Positions 21,179 to 32,025 of a stretch of 32,181 bases of DNA are shown piece by piece. The DNA lies in the NCBI RefSeq assembly GCF_003967355.1, contig NZ_BIFH01000058.1, positions 1,137 to 33,317 on the forward strand. The letters run 5' to 3'. Both the position numbers and the translations under genes were made by a program. The notes under the pieces are model-generated. The model was not told where the DNA came from and did not search any database. It was given only the letters and a program-made list of their open reading frames with translations. The DNA is from Embleya hyalina. Lineage in GTDB: Bacteria > Actinomycetota > Actinomycetes > Streptomycetales > Streptomycetaceae. Numbering within the stretch: the first letter of the stretch is position 1; each line of letters opens with the position of its first letter.

Positions 21179-21407
21179 CCCAGGACCCGCACGGCGGAAA
21201 GCAGCTGTTCTCGTCGGATGTCACTCGGGCAGCCGATCTTCGCAAAGAGCAACCCGCCAGTCAGCTACCGGCAAGTAATGTCATGGGATCGAGATCTCCG
21301 GCACATCGGTCACTTCGCCCCCGCGATGCCATGGAAGGGTGCGGCGACACCGGCTAGCGTGCGCCGGCCGGCTCGTGCGAGCGGTGAGGTGTGAACGGAG
21401 GTCGCCG

Positions 21408-22424
21408 GTGGATCTTGAACCGACGGAAGATCAAAAGGCGGTACGGAGCGCCTTTTCGGAGTTCTTCACGGACCGATGCCCGATTTCCGTGGTGCGCGCG
21501 GCCGAACCGCTCGGCTTCGCGGCCGATCTGTGGCGGCGCCTGGCCGCGATGGGCGTACCCGGAATGGCGCTGCCCGAAGATGCCGGCGGCGGTGCGAGCC
21601 GAGCCGATCTGATCCTGCTGTTGCACGAGGCCGGTCGGGTGCTGGCGCCGGTGCCGTTGAGCGCGCACCTGGCCGCGTCCCGACTGTTGCTCGACACGCC
21701 GTGGTGCGCGGGGGTCGCCGACGGCACGCTGATCGCGGCGCCGGCCCTGCGGCCGACCGTGGACGGCCTGGCCCGACTGGTGCCCGGCGGCGCGGTGGCC
21801 GATGTGGTGGTGGCGCTCGACGAGGACGAACTGGTCGCGGTACGGGGCGAGGCGCCGATGACCGCGCCGGTCAACCACGCGGCGGCGCCGCTGGCCGACC
21901 GATACGTGCGCGACGACCGGGGCGGGCGGGTGGTCCTGGCCCGGGGCGAGGACGCGGCCCGGCGACACGCCGCGCTGCGCCGGGAGTGGCAGTTGTATAC
22001 GGCCGCCACACTGACCGGGCTCGCCGAGCGGGCGCTGGAGTCGGCGGTCGCGTACACGCTGGAGCGCGAACAGTTCGGCAAGCCGATCGGCGCTTTCCAG
22101 GCGGTCCAGCAGGGGCTGGCCGATCTGGTCGGGCCGCTGGACGGGATCCGGCTGCTGACCGCGCGCGCCGCGTGGTGCGCCGACGAGGGCGACCCGGCCG
22201 AGGCGGGCCGGCTCGCGGTGATGGCGTTCCTGGCCGCGACGGAGGTGGCCCGGACCACGACCTATCGCGCGGTGCACTTCCACGGCGGATACGGCGTCAC
22301 CCTCGAATACGACATCCAGCTCTACTTCCGGCGCGCGCGGGGCTGGCCGCTGGTCCTGGGCGATCCGGACGAGGAGTACCGGGCGTTGGCCGACGATCTC
22401 TTCGGAGCGGTGGGAGGCGTCTGA
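21408..22424 (+). CDS. Acyl-CoA dehydrogenase, short subunit
   Basis: A 338-aa protein of the acyl-CoA dehydrogenase family, FadE28-like in its reduced middle region. The N-terminal helical domain (DLEPTEDQKAVRSAFSEFF, about 2-20) is normal. The beta-domain is short and degenerate (about 110-185). The C-terminal helical domain keeps ALESAVAYTLEREQFGKPIG (about 212-231) and FHGGYGVTLEYDIQLYFRRA (about 298-317). The usual substrate-binding SEPxxGSD motif is missing, so it may not bind FAD or substrate alone. GTG 21408 has ACGGAGG (21395-21401) 6 bases upstream. Its stop overlaps the next start by one base (TGATG), so it is probably the partner subunit of the downstream enzyme. Confidence 0.87.
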   Translation: MDLEPTEDQKAVRSAFSEFFTDRCPISVVRAAEPLGFAADLWRRLAAMGVPGMALPEDAGGGASRADLILLLHEAGRVLAPVPLSAHLAASRLLLDTPWCAGVADGTLIAAPALRPTVDGLARLVPGGAVADVVVALDEDELVAVRGEAPMTAPVNHAAAPLADRYVRDDRGGRVVLARGEDAARRHAALRREWQLYTAATLTGLAERALESAVAYTLEREQFGKPIGAFQAVQQGLADLVGPLDGIRLLTARAAWCADEGDPAEAGRLAVMAFLAATEVARTTTYRAVHFHGGYGVTLEYDIQLYFRRARGWPLVLGDPDEEYRALADDLFGAVGGV

Positions 22425-23581
22425 TGGACTTTCGACCCAAGGAATCGGTCGAGGAGTTCCGGCGATGGATCCGGGGCTTCGTCGCCGAACACCTGACCGA
22501 GGACATGATCGAGCGGGCCCGGCGCACCGGCACCTTCCACGACTGGGGGTTCCACCGCGCGCTGGCCGCGACCGGGGTGATCGCCGAGGGCATGGCCGGG
22601 CCCGGGCGGGCCGGGGGGCGCGACCCGTTGGAGCTGTACGTCTTCTTCGACGAACTGGGGCTGGCCGACGCGCCGTTCTACGGGCTGGCCAACACCATGC
22701 TGGTGGCGGGAGTCGTGGAGCAGATCGGCAGCGCGTTCCATCTCGCCGAGGTACTGCCCCGGTTCCATCGGGGCGAGGCGATCGCGGCGCTCGGCTACAG
22801 CGAACCCGGCTCGGGATCGGACGTCGCGGCGGCGGCCACCCGCGCGGAGCGGGTGCCCGGGGACCCGGAGGACGAGCCGGTGTGGCTGGTGAACGGGCAG
22901 AAGATGTTCACCACGCTCGTGCACGAGGCCGGCTACGTGATCCTGCTGACCCGCACCGACCCGGACGTGGCCAAACATCGCGGCCTGACCATGTTCCTGG
23001 TGCCGACCGACCTGCCCGGCATCTCCTTCCAGGCGGTGGAGACGATGGGCGGCGACCGCACCAACATCACCTACTTCGCCGACGTCCGCGTCCCCGACCG
23101 CTGGCGGCTGGGCGAGGTGCACGGCGGGTGGGACGTGATGAAGGTGGCGCTGGCCTACGAGCGGGGCGTGTTCGGCAACATGAACCAGGGCGTGTCGCTG
23201 CTGCGCCGGTTCACCCGGTGGGCGACCGAGACCGGGGCGATGGACGACACGGCGGTGCGCAAGCGGCTGGCCCGGATCGCGATCGACAACGAGATCACCG
23301 CGCTGCTGGCGCTGCGTCCGGCGCTGATCGCCAGTGCGGGCGGCCTGCCCACCACCGAGGGTTCGATCGCCAAGTTGTACGCGAGCGAGGCGTACAACCG
23401 GGCTGCCGAGGCGTGCCTGGACATGGCCGGACCCGAGGGACTATTGGGCGAGCCGGGCGACGCGTGGTTCGTCGACCACGCCGCGCGGGACGCGCCGGTG
23501 ACCACGATCTACGGCGGGACCAGCGAGATCCAGCGCAACAACATCGCGGAGCACCGGCTGGGGCTGCCCCGGTCGCGATAG
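22424..23581 (+). CDS. Acyl-CoA dehydrogenase, large subunit
   Basis: A 385-aa flavoprotein that oxidises acyl-CoA to 2-enoyl-CoA. The substrate/FAD segment GYSEPGSGSDVAAAATR (124-140) is intact, as is NGQKMFTT (157-164). The usual C-terminal catalytic Glu position reads YGGTSEIQR (363-371), with Gly instead of Glu. The base is therefore probably E246 in LAYERG, the alternative position used in isovaleryl-CoA dehydrogenase and in the ChsE1-ChsE2 heterotetramers of steroid degradation. The pair of unequal subunits with coupled translation fits an alpha2beta2 FadE complex. ATG 22424 lies on the stop of the short-subunit gene. A strong terminator follows. The substrate is not known; a sterol or bulky side-chain acyl-CoA is possible. 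Confidence 0.9.
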   Translation: MDFRPKESVEEFRRWIRGFVAEHLTEDMIERARRTGTFHDWGFHRALAATGVIAEGMAGPGRAGGRDPLELYVFFDELGLADAPFYGLANTMLVAGVVEQIGSAFHLAEVLPRFHRGEAIAALGYSEPGSGSDVAAAATRAERVPGDPEDEPVWLVNGQKMFTTLVHEAGYVILLTRTDPDVAKHRGLTMFLVPTDLPGISFQAVETMGGDRTNITYFADVRVPDRWRLGEVHGGWDVMKVALAYERGVFGNMNQGVSLLRRFTRWATETGAMDDTAVRKRLARIAIDNEITALLALRPALIASAGGLPTTEGSIAKLYASEAYNRAAEACLDMAGPEGLLGEPGDAWFVDHAARDAPVTTIYGGTSEIQRNNIAEHRLGLPRSR

Positions 23582-23619: not shown

Positions 23620-23776
23620 TGCCGCGCGGGCGGGCCGCTCCGGGGGCGCGGCGCCCGGTGTTTTACGGATATGACGGGCTCGGCGGGGGTGCCGCCGAAC
23701 GGGTGGCCGGAAGCGGGCGCGCTTCATGGCAGACTTCGGCACCGTTCACACCGGTGAGCGAAACGGAGTTTCTGCC

Positions 23777-26275
23777 ATGCGGCCGCTGCACGACGAGGAC
23801 CCTTCGAGCGTTGGCGCCTACCGATTGGTGGGCCGGCTCGGCGAAGGGACCACGGCTCGGACCTATCTGGGCGCCGCGCCCGACGACGCCCCCGTCGTGG
23901 TGCGGGTGATCCGGGCCGACCTCGGGCGTGATCCCGCCTTCCGCGTCCGCTTCGGCGAAGAGGTGGACGCCGCTCGGCGGTTGCCCGGTCCGGGCACCGC
24001 CGTGGTCCTGGACGCCGACACCACCGGCCGGCAACTCTGGTACGCCACCACGCACGTGCCCGGTCCGACGCTGGCCGAGACGGTCCGTCGGCACGGTCTG
24101 CTCCCCGGTCACTCGCTGCGCACGCTGGCCGGTGAACTCGCCGCCTCGCTCGGCCTGTTGCACGCCGCCGGGCTGTACCACGGGCGGCTCGACCCCGGTG
24201 CGGTGCGGCTGGATCCGAACGGCCCCCGGCTGCCGCACGTCGGGATCGCGCACGCCTCGCTCGGCTCGTCGGTGACCGCCGACGGCGTGGTGATCGGCAC
24301 CGTGCTCGACTCCCCCGGCTTTCGTTCGCCGGAGCAGGTACGGGATCTGACGGTGGGTCCGGCGAGCGACGTGTTCTCGCTCGGGTCGGTGCTGGTGTTC
24401 GCCGCGACCGGCGCGGGCCCGTTCGACCGGGGCGACGAGCGCTCGCCCGCCGATCGGGTCGCCGAGGGCGAGCCGGAACTGGGCGACGTGCCCGCCTCGT
24501 TGCGCGACCTGATCGCGGCCTGCCTGGTCAAGGACCCGGACCGGCGGCCGAGTCCGGACGAGGTGGCCCGGGTCGCGGCCGGCACCGCCGGCCCGAGCTG
24601 GCTGCCCGCGGCCACCGCGACGTGGGTGGCCGAACGGGTGGCCAACCCGTGGGAGCCACCCGAGCCGATGCCCGGCAGCGAGCCGTACGCGGCCGACACC
24701 GTACCGGCCCCGCCGCCCGGCGCGACCCCGCCGCCGGAGCCGGAGCCCACGACCACGACCGTCGCCTCCCCCGCCGCGCCGCCCGTCCCCGAGCCGGAGT
24801 CCGCGCCGCCCGCCACCCCGGCCCGGACCCACCGCGCGGCCCGGGCCGAACCCGCCGTGCCGCCGGCCGGGGGCGAACCGCCCACCCGCGCGCACCGGGC
24901 CGCCGGCTCGTCCCGGGCCAAGTCCCGCCGCGGCTTCCTCGCCGTCGCGGCCGGTGCCGCCGTCCTGGGCGGCGGCGGTGCGGCATGGGCGCTGAGCCGG
25001 GGCGGCGACAAGACGCCCAAGGCCACCCCGAAGCCGTCGGCGCCGGCGTCGAGTTCGGCGGCACGCACGCCGGGACCGGCCGTGCCCGGCACGGTCCGCG
25101 AACTCACCGTGTGGACCACGGAGAGCCTGGTGCCCGCCGCGCTGCTGGGCGAACTGGGCCTGGAGTTCGGCAAAATGGGCACCTCCGGCGCCGGGGTGCG
25201 GATCGGCAGTCGGGTGCAGCCGAAGGCCGGCTACACCCAGGCCCTCGAACAGGCGCTGCGCGCGGGTCGCGGGCCCGACGTGTTCGAACTCGACCTGCTC
25301 GCCCTGGCCCGGTTCAAGGCCGCCGACCTGGTGATGGACCTGACCCCGTTGCAGAGCCGGTTCGACGGCGGCAGCTGGTTCCCCGCCGTGCGGGCCGCGG
25401 TCACCTCGGGGGGCCGGATCATGGCGCTGCCCCTGGGCGCCGGCGTGCCCGTGGTGCTCTACGACAAGGGGCTGTTCCAGGCCGCGCAGGTGGGCGTGCC
25501 GACCGACCGGGTGACCTGGGTCGCGGACCTGGAGAAGTTGCGCCAGGCCAACGCGACCAACCCCGACTACCGCGCGCTGTACGTACCCGGCGGGGCCTGG
25601 CCGGTGTTGGCCTCGTGCGTGTGGGAGGACGACGGGACCATCGCGGTGCAGGAGGGCGACGCCTGGCGCGGCACGCTCGACCTGCCCGGATCGGTCGAGG
25701 GGGCCCGGTTCTTCCGACACCTCCAGTCGTACGCGCCGGACGCGGTCGGGGTGGGCAACGACGACCCGGCGACCACGGCCCGCGTCGCCAAGGGCGGGGT
25801 CGCCTCGGTGATCGCCGACGCCTCGCTGTACGACGCGGTGGTGACCGCGAATCCGGCGCTGCGCCCGGTGCTGGGCGCGTTCGCGATCCCCGGCCGCACG
25901 GCGGGCAAGCCGGCCGCCGTCGGGGTGCACGGCACGGTCCTGGCGGTGTCGGCCGCCAGCCTGTTCAAGGAGGCGGCGATCGACCTGCTCTCCCTGGTCG
26001 CCACCGACCGCTGGCGGGCCCGGATCGCGACGGAGGCCCGGCTGGTCCCGGTCCGCAGCGGCCTGGATCGAGCGGTGCCGTCGGACAATCCGATGATCCA
26101 GGCCGCGCTCTCCGCGCTGCCCGTGGGCGGTCGGGCGTATCCGGTCGCCCCGGGGTGGTCGGAGCGTCCGCTGGCCGAACTCTCCCGGCAGACGCTGGCG
26201 GGCACCGATCCGCTGGTGGCGGCGGCCGCCGCGAACACGATCGTGGCCCGCGAGTTCGGCGTCGACCCCACCTGA
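23777..26275 (+). CDS. Pseudokinase fused to an extracytoplasmic solute-binding domain
   Basis: An 832-aa bitopic protein. Residues 15-270 have the serine/threonine-kinase fold, with the glycine loop LGEGTTARTYLG (21-32), SPGFRSPEQ (179-187) and SDVFSLGS (197-204). However, the catalytic Lys position reads R43 in VVVRVI, the HRDLKPxN loop reads HGRLDPGA (135-142) and DFG reads IAH, so it should be catalytically dead. A Pro-rich linker (about 290-380) leads to KSRRGFLAV, a twin-arginine-like motif before a Gly/Ala-rich membrane segment (about 386-406). Residues ~438-832 form a carbohydrate-type solute-binding domain (VRELTVWTT, GRGPDVFELD, ALPLGAGVPVVLYDKG). ATG 23777 has CGGAG (23764-23768) 8 bases upstream. 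No ABC permease or ATPase gene is nearby, so a receptor role is inferred. The next gene is a paralogue in its binding domain. Confidence 0.88.
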   Translation: MRPLHDEDPSSVGAYRLVGRLGEGTTARTYLGAAPDDAPVVVRVIRADLGRDPAFRVRFGEEVDAARRLPGPGTAVVLDADTTGRQLWYATTHVPGPTLAETVRRHGLLPGHSLRTLAGELAASLGLLHAAGLYHGRLDPGAVRLDPNGPRLPHVGIAHASLGSSVTADGVVIGTVLDSPGFRSPEQVRDLTVGPASDVFSLGSVLVFAATGAGPFDRGDERSPADRVAEGEPELGDVPASLRDLIAACLVKDPDRRPSPDEVARVAAGTAGPSWLPAATATWVAERVANPWEPPEPMPGSEPYAADTVPAPPPGATPPPEPEPTTTTVASPAAPPVPEPESAPPATPARTHRAARAEPAVPPAGGEPPTRAHRAAGSSRAKSRRGFLAVAAGAAVLGGGGAAWALSRGGDKTPKATPKPSAPASSSAARTPGPAVPGTVRELTVWTTESLVPAALLGELGLEFGKMGTSGAGVRIGSRVQPKAGYTQALEQALRAGRGPDVFELDLLALARFKAADLVMDLTPLQSRFDGGSWFPAVRAAVTSGGRIMALPLGAGVPVVLYDKGLFQAAQVGVPTDRVTWVADLEKLRQANATNPDYRALYVPGGAWPVLASCVWEDDGTIAVQEGDAWRGTLDLPGSVEGARFFRHLQSYAPDAVGVGNDDPATTARVAKGGVASVIADASLYDAVVTANPALRPVLGAFAIPGRTAGKPAAVGVHGTVLAVSAASLFKEAAIDLLSLVATDRWRARIATEARLVPVRSGLDRAVPSDNPMIQAALSALPVGGRAYPVAPGWSERPLAELSRQTLAGTDPLVAAAAANTIVAREFGVDPT

Positions 26276-26321: not shown

Positions 26322-26346
26322 CAGGCATGGCATCCGGCCATGCCTG
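26322..26346. promoter_or_regulatory. Perfect inverted repeat before the second solute-binding gene
   Basis: CAGGCATGGC (26322-26331) pairs with GCCATGCCTG (26337-26346) around a 5-base centre, 13 bases before the ribosome binding site of the next gene. It could be an operator, a terminator of the first gene, or a leader hairpin controlling translation. No T-tract follows. Confidence 0.45.
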
Positions 26347-26372
26347 TCGCCCACTCTCGGAGGAGCCGCACC

Positions 26373-28232
26373 GTGTCGTCGTGGAACGAGGAACCACCCG
26401 CGTCGAGGGACGACGACCCGTCGGCCGAACCACCGCCTCGGCCCACGTACGCCCCGATGGCCGTGCCGCCGCCCCCGGGACAGCCGGCCGGACCGCCCGC
26501 GCAGCACCGGCCGGCCGGACCGCCGCCGGGGTACCCGGCCGGGCAGCGGCCCGGACCACCCCCGGCGGGTGGGGCACCGCAGCCGCCGGCCGGTCCCGCG
26601 CCCGGCTACCCGGCCGGGCCGCCTCCGCAGTACGCGGCGGGCCAGGCCCCGCGATACTCGCCGGGGCAACCTCCCGGCCAGGCACCGCAATACCCGAACC
26701 AGGCACCGCAGTACCCGGCCGGCCAGGGGGCGCAATACGCGGCCGGCGGGCCGTATCCGGGTGCACCCGCCCAGTACCCGGGCGGGCCGCAGTACCCGAA
26801 CACGCCGCCGGGGAGCCGGGGTCCGCAACCCCCGCGGCCCGACGGCGGGACCTCCCGGCGCCGGGTGATCGTGGCCGGTTCGGTCGCGGCGGCCGTCGCG
26901 GCCGGCGGCGGGGTCGCGGCCTGGCTGCTCACCCGGGGCGACGACAAGAGCGCCGCCCCCTCGCCCAAGCCGAACCCGACCACCCCCGCGCCGGTACCGC
27001 CGGGGCCGCCGACCGACCCCGAACCGCCCACCACCGAGAGCGGTCCGTACACGCTCACCATGTGGCTGGACAAGCTCTACACCCCGGGCGTCGACCAGGC
27101 GAAGACCAACTCCGACCTGGCCGCCGCGCTGGTCAAGGTGGATCCACTCGGCACCGTGCGCGGTGAGGTCCAGGAGTACATCGACCAGACGAAGCTGGAC
27201 ACCGCGCTCGCCGCGGGCAACGGCCCCGACCTCTTCCAGGTGGACAGCCTGGGCCTGGCCCGCCGGGTCAAGCAGGGCACCCTGCTCGACCTGACCCCCT
27301 ACGCGAAGCGGTTGAACGCGGACGCGTGGCATCCGGCGGCCCGGGCCGCCTGCACCGTCGACGGCAAGCTCTACGCGCTGCCGATGGACGTGTACGCCCC
27401 GGTCGTGCTGTACGACAAGCGGCTGTGCGATCCGGCCGGGTTCGTGGTGCCCACCACGCGCGACGAGTGGATCACGCAGTTGGACAAGCTCAAGCAGCAC
27501 TACGCGAGCGACCCGAAGTTCGAGGCGCTGCACCTGGTCGGCCGGGCCTGGCAGACGATCGCCGCGTGCCTGTACGCGAACGGCTGCGAGATAGCGGTGC
27601 GGCAGAACGAGCGCTGGGTCGGGCGACTGAACACCGACGCGGGCCGCGCGGGCATCGCGTTCTTCCAAAAGCTCCAGTCCTATTCGAGCGCGCCGAAGAA
27701 CGTCGAGGAGTACAAGGACCCGGCCGGCAACATCACCGCCGTGCTCACCGCCGGCAAGGCGGCGATGGCGATCCAGCCGGACTGGGTGGTGGCCGAACTG
27801 CTGCGCACCTCCCCCGAGACGGCCCGCAACCTGGGCGCCTTCCCGATGCCCGGGACCACCGCCGGCAAGCCCGCGACGGTCGGCGTGTGGGCCGGTGTGC
27901 TGGCCGTGTCGGCGAAGACCGGGCATCCGGTGGGGGCGACCAACCTGCTGCGGGTGATGTCCTCGTCGGTGTGGCAGGAGCGCTGGGCGAACGAGAACGA
28001 GACGGTGCCGGCGCTCGGCGGGCTGACCACCACGTCGGGCGCCGCCAACCCGGCCCGGGCCGCGACGCTGACCGCGCTCGCCCAGGGCAAGCCGTACCCG
28101 GCCGCGCCGGGCTGGACGGCGGGTCCGCTCAAGGACTTCGCCGAGAACGTGCTGGGCGGCGCCGACCCGGTGGCCGTCGGCGCGGACCAGGACGCGAAGA
28201 TCGCGGGCACCTTCGTCCGTTACCAGCCCTGA
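26373..28232 (+). CDS. Membrane-anchored solute-binding protein with disordered N-terminus
   Basis: A 619-aa protein, paralogous in its C-terminal domain to the preceding gene product. Residues 1-160 are a proline/glycine-rich disordered region with repeats around QYP, AGQ and PPG (for example QAPQYPNQAPQYPAGQ). Then comes TSRRRVIVAG, a twin-arginine-like motif, and one membrane segment (about 165-187). Residues ~225-619 form the binding domain with GNGPDLFQVDSLGLARR, ALPMDVYAPVVLYDK and TTAGKPATVGVWAGVLAVS. The last aligns with RTAGKPAAVGVHGTVLAVS in the first protein. No lipobox Cys is present, so it is anchored by the helix. GTG 26373 has GGAGGAG (26359-26365) 7 bases upstream. It lies 97 bp after the pseudokinase gene and could be co-transcribed. 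A terminator follows at 28319-28348. Confidence 0.87.
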   Translation: MSSWNEEPPASRDDDPSAEPPPRPTYAPMAVPPPPGQPAGPPAQHRPAGPPPGYPAGQRPGPPPAGGAPQPPAGPAPGYPAGPPPQYAAGQAPRYSPGQPPGQAPQYPNQAPQYPAGQGAQYAAGGPYPGAPAQYPGGPQYPNTPPGSRGPQPPRPDGGTSRRRVIVAGSVAAAVAAGGGVAAWLLTRGDDKSAAPSPKPNPTTPAPVPPGPPTDPEPPTTESGPYTLTMWLDKLYTPGVDQAKTNSDLAAALVKVDPLGTVRGEVQEYIDQTKLDTALAAGNGPDLFQVDSLGLARRVKQGTLLDLTPYAKRLNADAWHPAARAACTVDGKLYALPMDVYAPVVLYDKRLCDPAGFVVPTTRDEWITQLDKLKQHYASDPKFEALHLVGRAWQTIAACLYANGCEIAVRQNERWVGRLNTDAGRAGIAFFQKLQSYSSAPKNVEEYKDPAGNITAVLTAGKAAMAIQPDWVVAELLRTSPETARNLGAFPMPGTTAGKPATVGVWAGVLAVSAKTGHPVGATNLLRVMSSSVWQERWANENETVPALGGLTTTSGAANPARAATLTALAQGKPYPAAPGWTAGPLKDFAENVLGGADPVAVGADQDAKIAGTFVRYQP

Positions 28233-28348: not shown

Positions 28349-28488
28349 ACCGCATTACCCACCCTCCGCAATCGGACCGGCGCATACCGTCGGGTCACTT
28401 CCCCTTCGGGCGACCGGCGGTTTCCGGCTTCGGTGGTACATGTCCGGCCGATCGGTCGCTCTCCGAGCACACGAGGATGCGGTCCGTC

Positions 28489-29652
28489 ATGTCCGGAAGT
28501 CCCGACCCCTCCCGGGCCGATCTGCTCCGCGGCAGCCTCGAGGCCGTCGCGCCCGTCGCGCACGATCTGGTCTCGCACTTCTACGCGCTGCTGTTCCTGC
28601 GCCGCCCCGACCTGCGCGCGTTGTTCCCGCCGGCCATGGACCACCAGCGCGACCGCCTCCTCGCCGCGCTGCTGCGGGTCGGCGCGGCCGGCGACGAACC
28701 GCACGAGTTGCGCCGCTATCTGCGCGGATTGGGCCGGGACCACCGCAAATACGGGGTACTGGACGAGCACTACGACGCGGTCGGCGGCGCGCTGATCGGC
28801 GCGCTGGCCCGCTACCTGGGCGAGCGCTGGACGCCCGAACTCCAGGCCGCCTGGGTGGAGGTGTACACGTGGGCGGCGGCGGTGATGATCGAGGCCGCCG
28901 CCGACGACGCCGAGGACGCGCCCGCGTGGTGGGACGCGGTGATCACCGCCCACGAGCCGCGCGGCCGGGACATCGCGGTGATCACCGTCGAGCCGGATCG
29001 CCCGCTGCCCTACCACCCCGGCCAGCACGTCACGGTGGAGACCCCCTGGTGGCCCCGGGTGTGGCGGCACTACTCGATCGCCAACGCCCCCCGCGTCGAC
29101 GGCCGGCTGGAGCTGCACGTGCGCGCGGTGCCGGCGGGGTGGGTGAGCAACGCGCTGGTACACCGGGCCCGGGTCGGCGACCGGATCCGGCTCGGCCCGG
29201 CGCGCGGCGGCCTGGTGTTGCGCGGCGAGACGCTGCGCCGGACGTTGTGCGTGGCCTACGGCACCGGCCTGGCGCCGATCAAGGCGCTGGTGGAGCACAT
29301 GGCGCAGCGTCAGCTGGCACACCGTGCGCACGTGTTCATCGGCGCCGAGTATCGGGCGGACCTGTACGACCTGGGCGCGCTGTCCGCCATGGCCGACGTG
29401 TACCCGTGGTTGAACGTGATCCCCGCGGTCACCCACGACCGCTCGTTCACGGGCGTCCGGGGCGCGCTGCCCGACGTGCTGGCCAGGTACGGCGACTGGG
29501 CGGACCACGACGTGTTCGTCAGCGGGTCGGCGGCGTTGGTCCGGGCCACCGCGCACCGGCTGACCGGCGAATTGGGGGTGGCCCCGCAGCGGCTGCACAC
29601 CGAGAGCCTGGACGGGTCCGCTCGCGGGACGGTACTGCTTCGGGGCCGCTGA
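28489..29652 (+). CDS. Flavohemoglobin-type globin/FAD/NAD oxidoreductase
   Basis: A 387-aa cytoplasmic protein of flavohemoglobin architecture. The N-terminal globin domain (about 1-135) has the B10 Tyr in SHFYALLF (Y32), the CD1 Phe in LFP (F46), the proximal His in RDHRKYGV (H85) and the Tyr in EHYDAV (Y95). The FAD domain follows with PGQHVTVE (177-184) and RHYSIAN (193-199). The NAD domain has YGTGLAPIKA (257-266) and FVSGSAALV. Flavohemoglobins use NADH to turn nitric oxide into nitrate. The start is uncertain: AGGA (28474-28477) is 11 bases before ATG 28489, while ATG 28477 would add four residues without a ribosome binding site. It is transcribed before the YdeP-type gene with a 96-bp gap. 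No NsrR-type site was found. Confidence 0.87.
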   Translation: MSGSPDPSRADLLRGSLEAVAPVAHDLVSHFYALLFLRRPDLRALFPPAMDHQRDRLLAALLRVGAAGDEPHELRRYLRGLGRDHRKYGVLDEHYDAVGGALIGALARYLGERWTPELQAAWVEVYTWAAAVMIEAAADDAEDAPAWWDAVITAHEPRGRDIAVITVEPDRPLPYHPGQHVTVETPWWPRVWRHYSIANAPRVDGRLELHVRAVPAGWVSNALVHRARVGDRIRLGPARGGLVLRGETLRRTLCVAYGTGLAPIKALVEHMAQRQLAHRAHVFIGAEYRADLYDLGALSAMADVYPWLNVIPAVTHDRSFTGVRGALPDVLARYGDWADHDVFVSGSAALVRATAHRLTGELGVAPQRLHTESLDGSARGTVLLRGR

Positions 29653-29697: not shown

Positions 29698-29717
29698 GTC
29701 GTGTCGAGTCGTGTCGA
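29698..29717 (+). repeat. Perfect tandem 10-bp repeat in an intergenic gap
   Basis: GTCGTGTCGA occurs twice without a spacer (29698-29707 and 29708-29717), about 30 bases before the start of the oxidoreductase gene. It may be a direct-repeat regulator site or a chance duplication. Confidence 0.5.
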
Positions 29718-29748
29718 TACGACCGCTTCGAGCCGCAGGAGCACCCGC

Positions 29749-32025
<2,277 letters not shown>

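Follow-up and report, generated by a model that had tools for sequence, protein, structure and literature searches.

A pseudokinase joined to a solute-binding domain in Embleya hyalina, and the receptor pair from which it probably came

The soil actinomycete Embleya hyalina carries a gene, here called A (positions 23777-26275 of the window, the whole 32,181-nucleotide stretch of DNA that was analysed), whose 832-residue product consists of a kinase-fold domain, a Pro-rich linker, one membrane segment and a carbohydrate-type solute-binding domain (SBP), in that order. The kinase fold is recognized by homology and its key residues are replaced, which makes the domain a pseudokinase by sequence. 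The account that we favour, and which we hold with about as much doubt as confidence, is that A is a single-pass receptor signalling without phosphotransfer, the product of a receptor duplication that gave rise to a former kinase/pseudokinase pair, now non-catalytic in Embleya. Because one genome of a related genus has A next to a sister protein with an intact-looking kinase, A probably started out as the non-catalytic member of a receptor pair. Bacterial pseudokinases are described as largely unexplored experimentally and mostly of unknown function (PMC12599244). The protein combines two known kinds, the pseudokinase and the SBP-kinase, and its history is unusually readable, with an order of losses, a motif-intact sister, a putative extracellular sensor that may give the ligand and a linked redox gene; this readable history, the sensor and the redox link would make dead-kinase signalling testable in a soil actinomycete.

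The reading frame of A is open over 23726-26275, and the Met at 23777 is the start common to its orthologues. The parts of the gene are:

23777-26275, forward strand: gene A, pseudokinase, Pro-rich linker, membrane segment and SBP (832 aa; frame open from 23726)
23819-24568, forward strand: kinase-fold domain of A, residues 15-264 (Pfam; PknB by sequence; Foldseek on a weak model)
24926-24994, forward strand: membrane segment of A, residues 384-406, beginning RRGFL, resembling a Tat signal anchor (by the positive-inside rule its basic side would face inward)
25082-26272, forward strand: carbohydrate-type solute-binding domain of A, residues 436-832 (PDB sequence search; profile of eight relatives)

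This architecture had been proposed in an earlier, sequence-only reading of the window, and database searches confirm it. Residues 15-264 match Pfam Pkinase at 1.3e-15, and the nearest PDB entry to the kinase part by sequence is M. tuberculosis PknB (phmmer, 1.2e-21). Foldseek also pairs it with PknB at 2.7e-14, with a TM of 0.52 and an rmsd of 10.9 on a weak model. Both AlphaFold models of A are weak (mean pLDDT of 35.9 for the full length and 56.2 for the kinase part alone, with the N-lobe mostly below 50), and because the kinase-only model is so, nothing is drawn from it about occlusion of the pocket. The linker between the kinase domain and the membrane segment is about 115 residues long in Embleya, and the predicted topology places the kinase fold inside and the SBP outside. 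As a single sequence the SBP matches no Pfam SBP model; against the PDB it finds sugar SBPs at 4e-9 over residues 430-743, and a profile of eight relatives finds sugar-binding ABC proteins at 2.7e-23, matches which suggest the class of its ligand. A scan for promoters and terminators gave nothing useful.

The kinase part departs from a canonical kinase at these places:

23903-23905, forward strand: R43 where the ATP-binding beta3 Lys would stand (alignment)
24179-24202, forward strand: HGRLDPGA replacing HRDLKPSN, with loss of the catalytic Asp and Asn (alignment; HGR in all seven orthologues)
24233-24244, forward strand: PHVG replacing xDFG, with loss of the metal-binding Asp (alignment; Asp kept in three of seven orthologues, all of the sister genus)
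24302-24313, forward strand: VLDS, a four-residue insertion in the activation segment (all seven orthologues; absent from the three canonical kinases in the alignment)

Aligned with kinase domains of the same genome, A has R43 at the beta3 Lys, R137 at the HRD Asp, A142 at the Asn that follows and H154-V-G156 at DFG. The first two losses had been called correctly from the letters, as had the retention of the SPEQ and DVFSLG motifs. The loss of DFG also stands, although the site had been named as IAH and the true position is the PHVG just before it; the glycine loop GxGxxG, said to be kept, retains two glycines, but the third is Ala (A27). By our own assignment E62 is likely the alphaC Glu, which would then be kept. 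By definition a pseudokinase is without at least one of three residues, the beta3 Lys, the HRD Asp and the DFG Asp, and Lys-to-Arg alone does not exclude nucleotide binding (PMC12599244).

The triple loss has no match among the other comparable kinase domains examined in its genome. A search for kinase domains gave 67 matches, and 58 places were aligned with A, which is itself listed twice (on contigs C57 and C58); four weak matches (26.9-34.5 bits), a duplicate on C78 and two pieces neighbouring examined ones were left out. Three of the 58 rows have no letters at one or more key positions, and the most divergent rows are aligned with some uncertainty. Among the 55 with letters at all three positions, Lys, HRD Asp and DFG Asp are intact in 52, two lack Lys only, and one lacks Lys and the DFG Asp. 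A is thus the sole triple loss among the 56 comparable kinase domains examined (A and these 55).

Orthologues of A occur in all four genomes of the Embleya set (the window's own, Embleya scabrispora DSM 41855 or G004, G005, and Streptomyces sp. SID3343 or G006) and in all three sister-genus genomes searched (G007, G012 and G013). HGR in place of HRD and the four-residue insertion are present in all seven. The three sister-genus proteins retain Lys (LKAVR, LKAVR and VKAVR) and the DFG Asp (as DLG), whereas the four Embleya proteins have neither, the Asp position being occupied by H, H, G and T. Since these two residues persist in sister-genus A, the losses came in steps: both genera share the loss in the catalytic loop, and the nucleotide- and metal-binding residues were lost later, in Embleya. 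The pseudokinase claim, against which close homologues with intact motifs would count, stands as regards HRD (intact in none of the seven) and is qualified by the Lys and DFG Asp that the sister genus keeps.

Kinase folds with other activities exist, for example SelO and SidJ (PMC12599244). An activity of such a kind in A (AMPylation or glutamylation), or weak kinase activity through a displaced residue, could draw on the retained E62 and two loop glycines and on D139, two residues past the HRD Asp position. We consider this decidedly improbable, since in Embleya other residues stand at each of the three nucleotide- and metal-binding positions and the DFG Asp position varies by species, unlike a working active site.

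Is the kinase part of A a relic? Its dN/dS within Embleya is 0.107 (window/G005), 0.276 (window/G004) and 0.244 (window/G006, where the kinase part alone lies on the G006 contig), against 0.123 (window/G005) and 0.25 (window/G004) for the SBP part; the linker has higher values, 0.279 and 0.421 for the same two pairs. Wider pairs give higher kinase-part values, 0.359 and 0.417 for two pairs of sister-genus genomes and 0.451 for a comparison across the genera (where dS is near 1), at or below the corresponding SBP values of 0.484, 0.429 and 0.676. The kinase domain is under purifying selection, and we think that it is not a relic. A decaying gene, with its kinase part en route to loss as in gene B described below, might be read from the kinase-free B of Embleya and from the kinase tree, in which the A clade has support of 100/99 and the Embleya branch is long (0.55 versus 0.28 for the sister genus). 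Decay is nevertheless highly improbable in our judgement: the frame is open in seven of seven A orthologues, the SID3343 copy being cut by a contig end, the kinase-part dN/dS in Embleya stays at 0.11-0.28, and SPEQ and DVFSLG are still present. With the losses conserved and the domain under purifying selection, the reading first proposed, a receptor that binds ligand outside and has a non-catalytic kinase scaffold inside, is the best one left. Compared with the kinases of its own genome, the kinase part falls among the AfsK-like ones in the kinase tree. As a separate observation, the linker of A in G007 (L100:2940-7751) has grown to about 900 residues in a protein of 1604 aa, compared with the roughly 115 residues of Embleya.

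Searches of the family and of a phylum sample turned up no fusion of this SBP type beyond the two genera. Six of 54 other genomes in the family have SBP matches at E <= 1e-45, with open frames of 435-541 aa (up to 28 candidates per genome being scored). Nine of 245 other genomes in the phylum sample have them at E <= 1e-40, with frames of 421-595 aa; because no more than seven candidates per genome were scored there, fusions could be missed. Viral contigs were also scanned for further relatives and yielded none.

The second binder that had been noticed beside A is indeed there, 64 bases downstream:

26340-28232, forward strand: gene B, Pro-rich N-terminus, membrane segment and SBP, no kinase domain here (paralogue of the SBP of A)

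Its SBP matches Pfam SBP_bac_8 at 2.1e-18. In the three Embleya genomes with a readable B start, B has no kinase, and a Pro-rich stretch alone precedes the membrane segment. In G007 B carries a kinase (Pkinase, 1.2e-34) with VAIK, HRDLKPSN and DFG, joined to the SBP; this is the one genome in which a motif-intact kinase was seen on B. The nearest paralogue of A in this genome thus has a motif-intact kinase, which does not refute the pseudokinase claim but refines it to that of a former kinase/pseudokinase pair. In the other two sister-genus genomes no B was found at E <= 1e-40, a threshold that the A/B match in G007 (1.2e-71) passes easily.

In the SBP tree, five A and four B rows form one clade (100/100) set off from 25 SBPs that are unfused by frame length (421-595 aa); in this clade the A rows (100/99) and the B rows (92/79) each group across both genera. 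The tree is rooted at midpoint, carries a long-branch warning for the B clade and was built without A of G005, A of G006 and B of G005. Since each clade spans both genera, A and B appear to be paralogues that predate the separation of the genera. In the kinase-domain tree a grouping of A with B is neither supported nor rejected (AU p = 0.273). The simplest account would be that a kinase-membrane-SBP receptor was duplicated, that one kinase died and that the other was later removed in Embleya; a gain of the kinase by B in G007 alone would be less simple.

The SBPs of A and B are homologous to ABC sugar SBPs, and the two proteins could in principle be ordinary transport binding proteins that hand sugar to an ABC permease elsewhere, the kinase part being a passenger. 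We find this distinctly improbable. The SBP of A is preceded by a segment without Cys, which is unlike a lipoprotein, and constraint is as strong on the kinase part as on the SBP. The statement that no ABC permease or ATPase gene lies nearby also holds as far as the window was scanned: for A the SBP fold is found by homology, and no linked permease or ATPase appears among the 19 window ORFs scanned with Pfam, a part of all its ORFs; seven of the 19 had no match, at least one of these seven because it was read in the wrong frame, and a permease farther away or among the other ORFs may exist.

The neighbours of A and B in the window are:

21339-22424, forward strand: acyl-CoA dehydrogenase 1 (upstream of A in six of seven genomes)
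22427-23581, forward strand: acyl-CoA dehydrogenase 2 (upstream of A in six of seven genomes)
28477-29652, forward strand: globin with FAD/NAD reductase, flavohaemoglobin-like (in the cluster in five of seven genomes)
29701-32025, forward strand: molybdopterin oxidoreductase, FdhF/YdeP family (downstream of A in all six loci readable on that side)

The oxidoreductase scores 967 bits against a family cut-off of 582 and is clustered with A or B in all seven genomes; the globin-reductase is missing from two such loci. In the window and two other Embleya genomes the order is acyl-CoA dehydrogenase 1, acyl-CoA dehydrogenase 2, A, B, globin-reductase and molybdopterin oxidoreductase, and G007 has the same order except that B follows the oxidoreductase. 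The G012 locus has no B, that of G013 consists of A and the oxidoreductase alone, and that of SID3343 is split over two contig ends, with B adjoining the oxidoreductase and no globin between them. Linked globin-reductases of four other genomes are 70-97% identical to the window's, whereas all other matches (E <= 1e-40, 61 genomes) are at most 53% identical to it. We take this linkage to be a real functional link.

This linkage bears on another explanation, in which A is a decoy or brake: its SBP would bind ligand, or pair in trans with another SBP-kinase and keep it off, as a dominant negative with no scaffold output of its own. Candidate partners may be sought in the same genome, which has an intact kinase-SBP (L007, its SBP type assigned by eye) and 52 motif-intact kinase domains, and a conserved fold would suit any binding role. 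A stays with the same redox gene in six of six readable loci, however, which suggests a local role, and we rate the decoy as unlikely, though worth keeping in mind.

A second likely pseudokinase just past the window (L016:612-2441, on C58; R for Lys, HGD and GFG) was considered as part of the locus and is not counted in it, because C58 conflicts with C57 there. The first 2500 bases of contigs C57 and C58 are the same, as is the interval 33000-33317, and the window (C57:1137-33317) stops exactly at their divergence. Beyond it, C57 carries ORFs of 392, 438 and 274 aa whose strands agree with those in G005; in E. scabrispora the strands agree too, and the lengths differ. The shared start and later divergence of the two contigs could reflect a redundant assembly or a genuine duplication of some 33 kb. 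The L016 protein itself is likely a second pseudokinase of the same genome, with a shortened activation segment; its closeness to A rests on the conflicting contig C58.

How could a receptor of this kind have arisen and signalled? Returning to the favoured account of a former kinase/pseudokinase pair, we hypothesize that a kinase-membrane-SBP receptor was duplicated before Embleya and its sister genus split, and that copy A turned pseudokinase before that split, losing its HRD Asp and gaining the activation-segment insertion, with copy B keeping the motif-intact kinase that one sister-genus genome would still display. In the ancestral pair, ligand on the two SBPs would bring the inner domains together, and pseudokinase A would switch kinase B allosterically, much as HER3 acts on HER2; in a pair of the G007 type, kinase B would be the obvious target of A. 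Later, in Embleya, B would have dropped its kinase and A would have lost Lys and the DFG Asp. The SBP would close on its ligand outside, the membrane segment would pass the change inward, and the pseudokinase would act by binding. Neither half in Embleya can plausibly phosphorylate, so the pseudokinase would probably work as a scaffold or allosteric switch, and the non-catalytic A/B pair might recruit or release another kinase of the genome, an FHA-type protein or the linked redox enzymes. It is the pairing of A with B, the allostery and the output in Embleya that we infer here. More tentatively, and with doubt outweighing confidence, we suggest that these genomes hold an analogue of HER2/HER3, a transmembrane kinase/pseudokinase receptor pair seen at several stages, and that in Embleya scaffolding may have replaced phosphorylation, perhaps on the linked redox enzymes.

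Several known systems resemble A in part. AfsK-type kinases share with it a kinase-domain relationship and a linker and membrane segment after the domain; they have a PQQ-type C-terminal part and are active, in which A differs, and A scores 168.7 bits against the AfsK model NCBIfam NF053615, whose cut-off is 1300. Fusions of a kinase domain and a solute-binding domain in one polypeptide were rightly said to be known, and InterPro is stated to list a further 260 beside StpK7/MSMEG_1200 (PMC6069109). The StpK7-type members are discussed as kinases, whereas the kinase part of A is a pseudokinase by sequence and its SBP is of the carbohydrate type; A scores 44.7 bits against NCBIfam StpK7, below the equivalog cut-off of 900. 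The GlnH/GlnX-PknG system, in which an extracytoplasmic solute-binding protein is proposed to feed a Ser/Thr kinase, offers a precedent for an SBP as sensor, but it is described there as three separate proteins with an amino-acid ligand and an active kinase (PMC6069109).

Pseudokinases degraded in all three motifs are called 'relatively common in prokaryotes' (PMC12599244). The actinobacterial ActPs1 group of that source has the three catalytic residues substituted, as do four of four Embleya orthologues of A and none of the three from the sister genus; PQQ domains are found in many ActPs1 members and the G-helix is missing from about 60%, whereas A has an SBP instead and no deletion at the G-helix in the alignment. 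ActPs2 shares with A the Arg for beta3 Lys (R43), but has the HRD Asp changed to Asn, a DFG deletion and an activation-loop insertion of about 250 residues, against Arg, no deletion and four residues in A (same source). The pseudokinase domain of MviN (ActPs3) is likewise a triple-loss actinobacterial pseudokinase in a membrane protein, and is described as phosphorylated by PknB and recruiting FhaA, a model for non-catalytic output; it differs in an activation-loop deletion, and no SBP is described for it, whereas A has an activation-segment insertion and an SBP (PMC12599244). The sequence-only reading had called the combination in A unusual, which is half right. Its two ingredients, SBP-kinase fusions (PMC6069109) and triple-loss pseudokinases (PMC12599244), are both published, and for the pseudokinase-SBP combination no report was found among the titles listed in literature searches, whose reach mostly excluded subscription journals.

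The membrane segments of A and B begin with RRxPhiPhi (SRRGFL, for example) and are weakly hydrophobic, like a Tat signal placed after a kinase. Such a start was seen by eye in nine of nine A and B segments, compared with 11 of the 42 other kinases in which a crude prediction placed a membrane segment, and no report of a twin-arginine signal in such kinases was found in a literature search. Elsewhere in the E. hyalina genome, L007 (C21:324300) encodes a motif-intact kinase followed by an RRRLL membrane segment and then by what appears by eye to be an amino-acid-type SBP.
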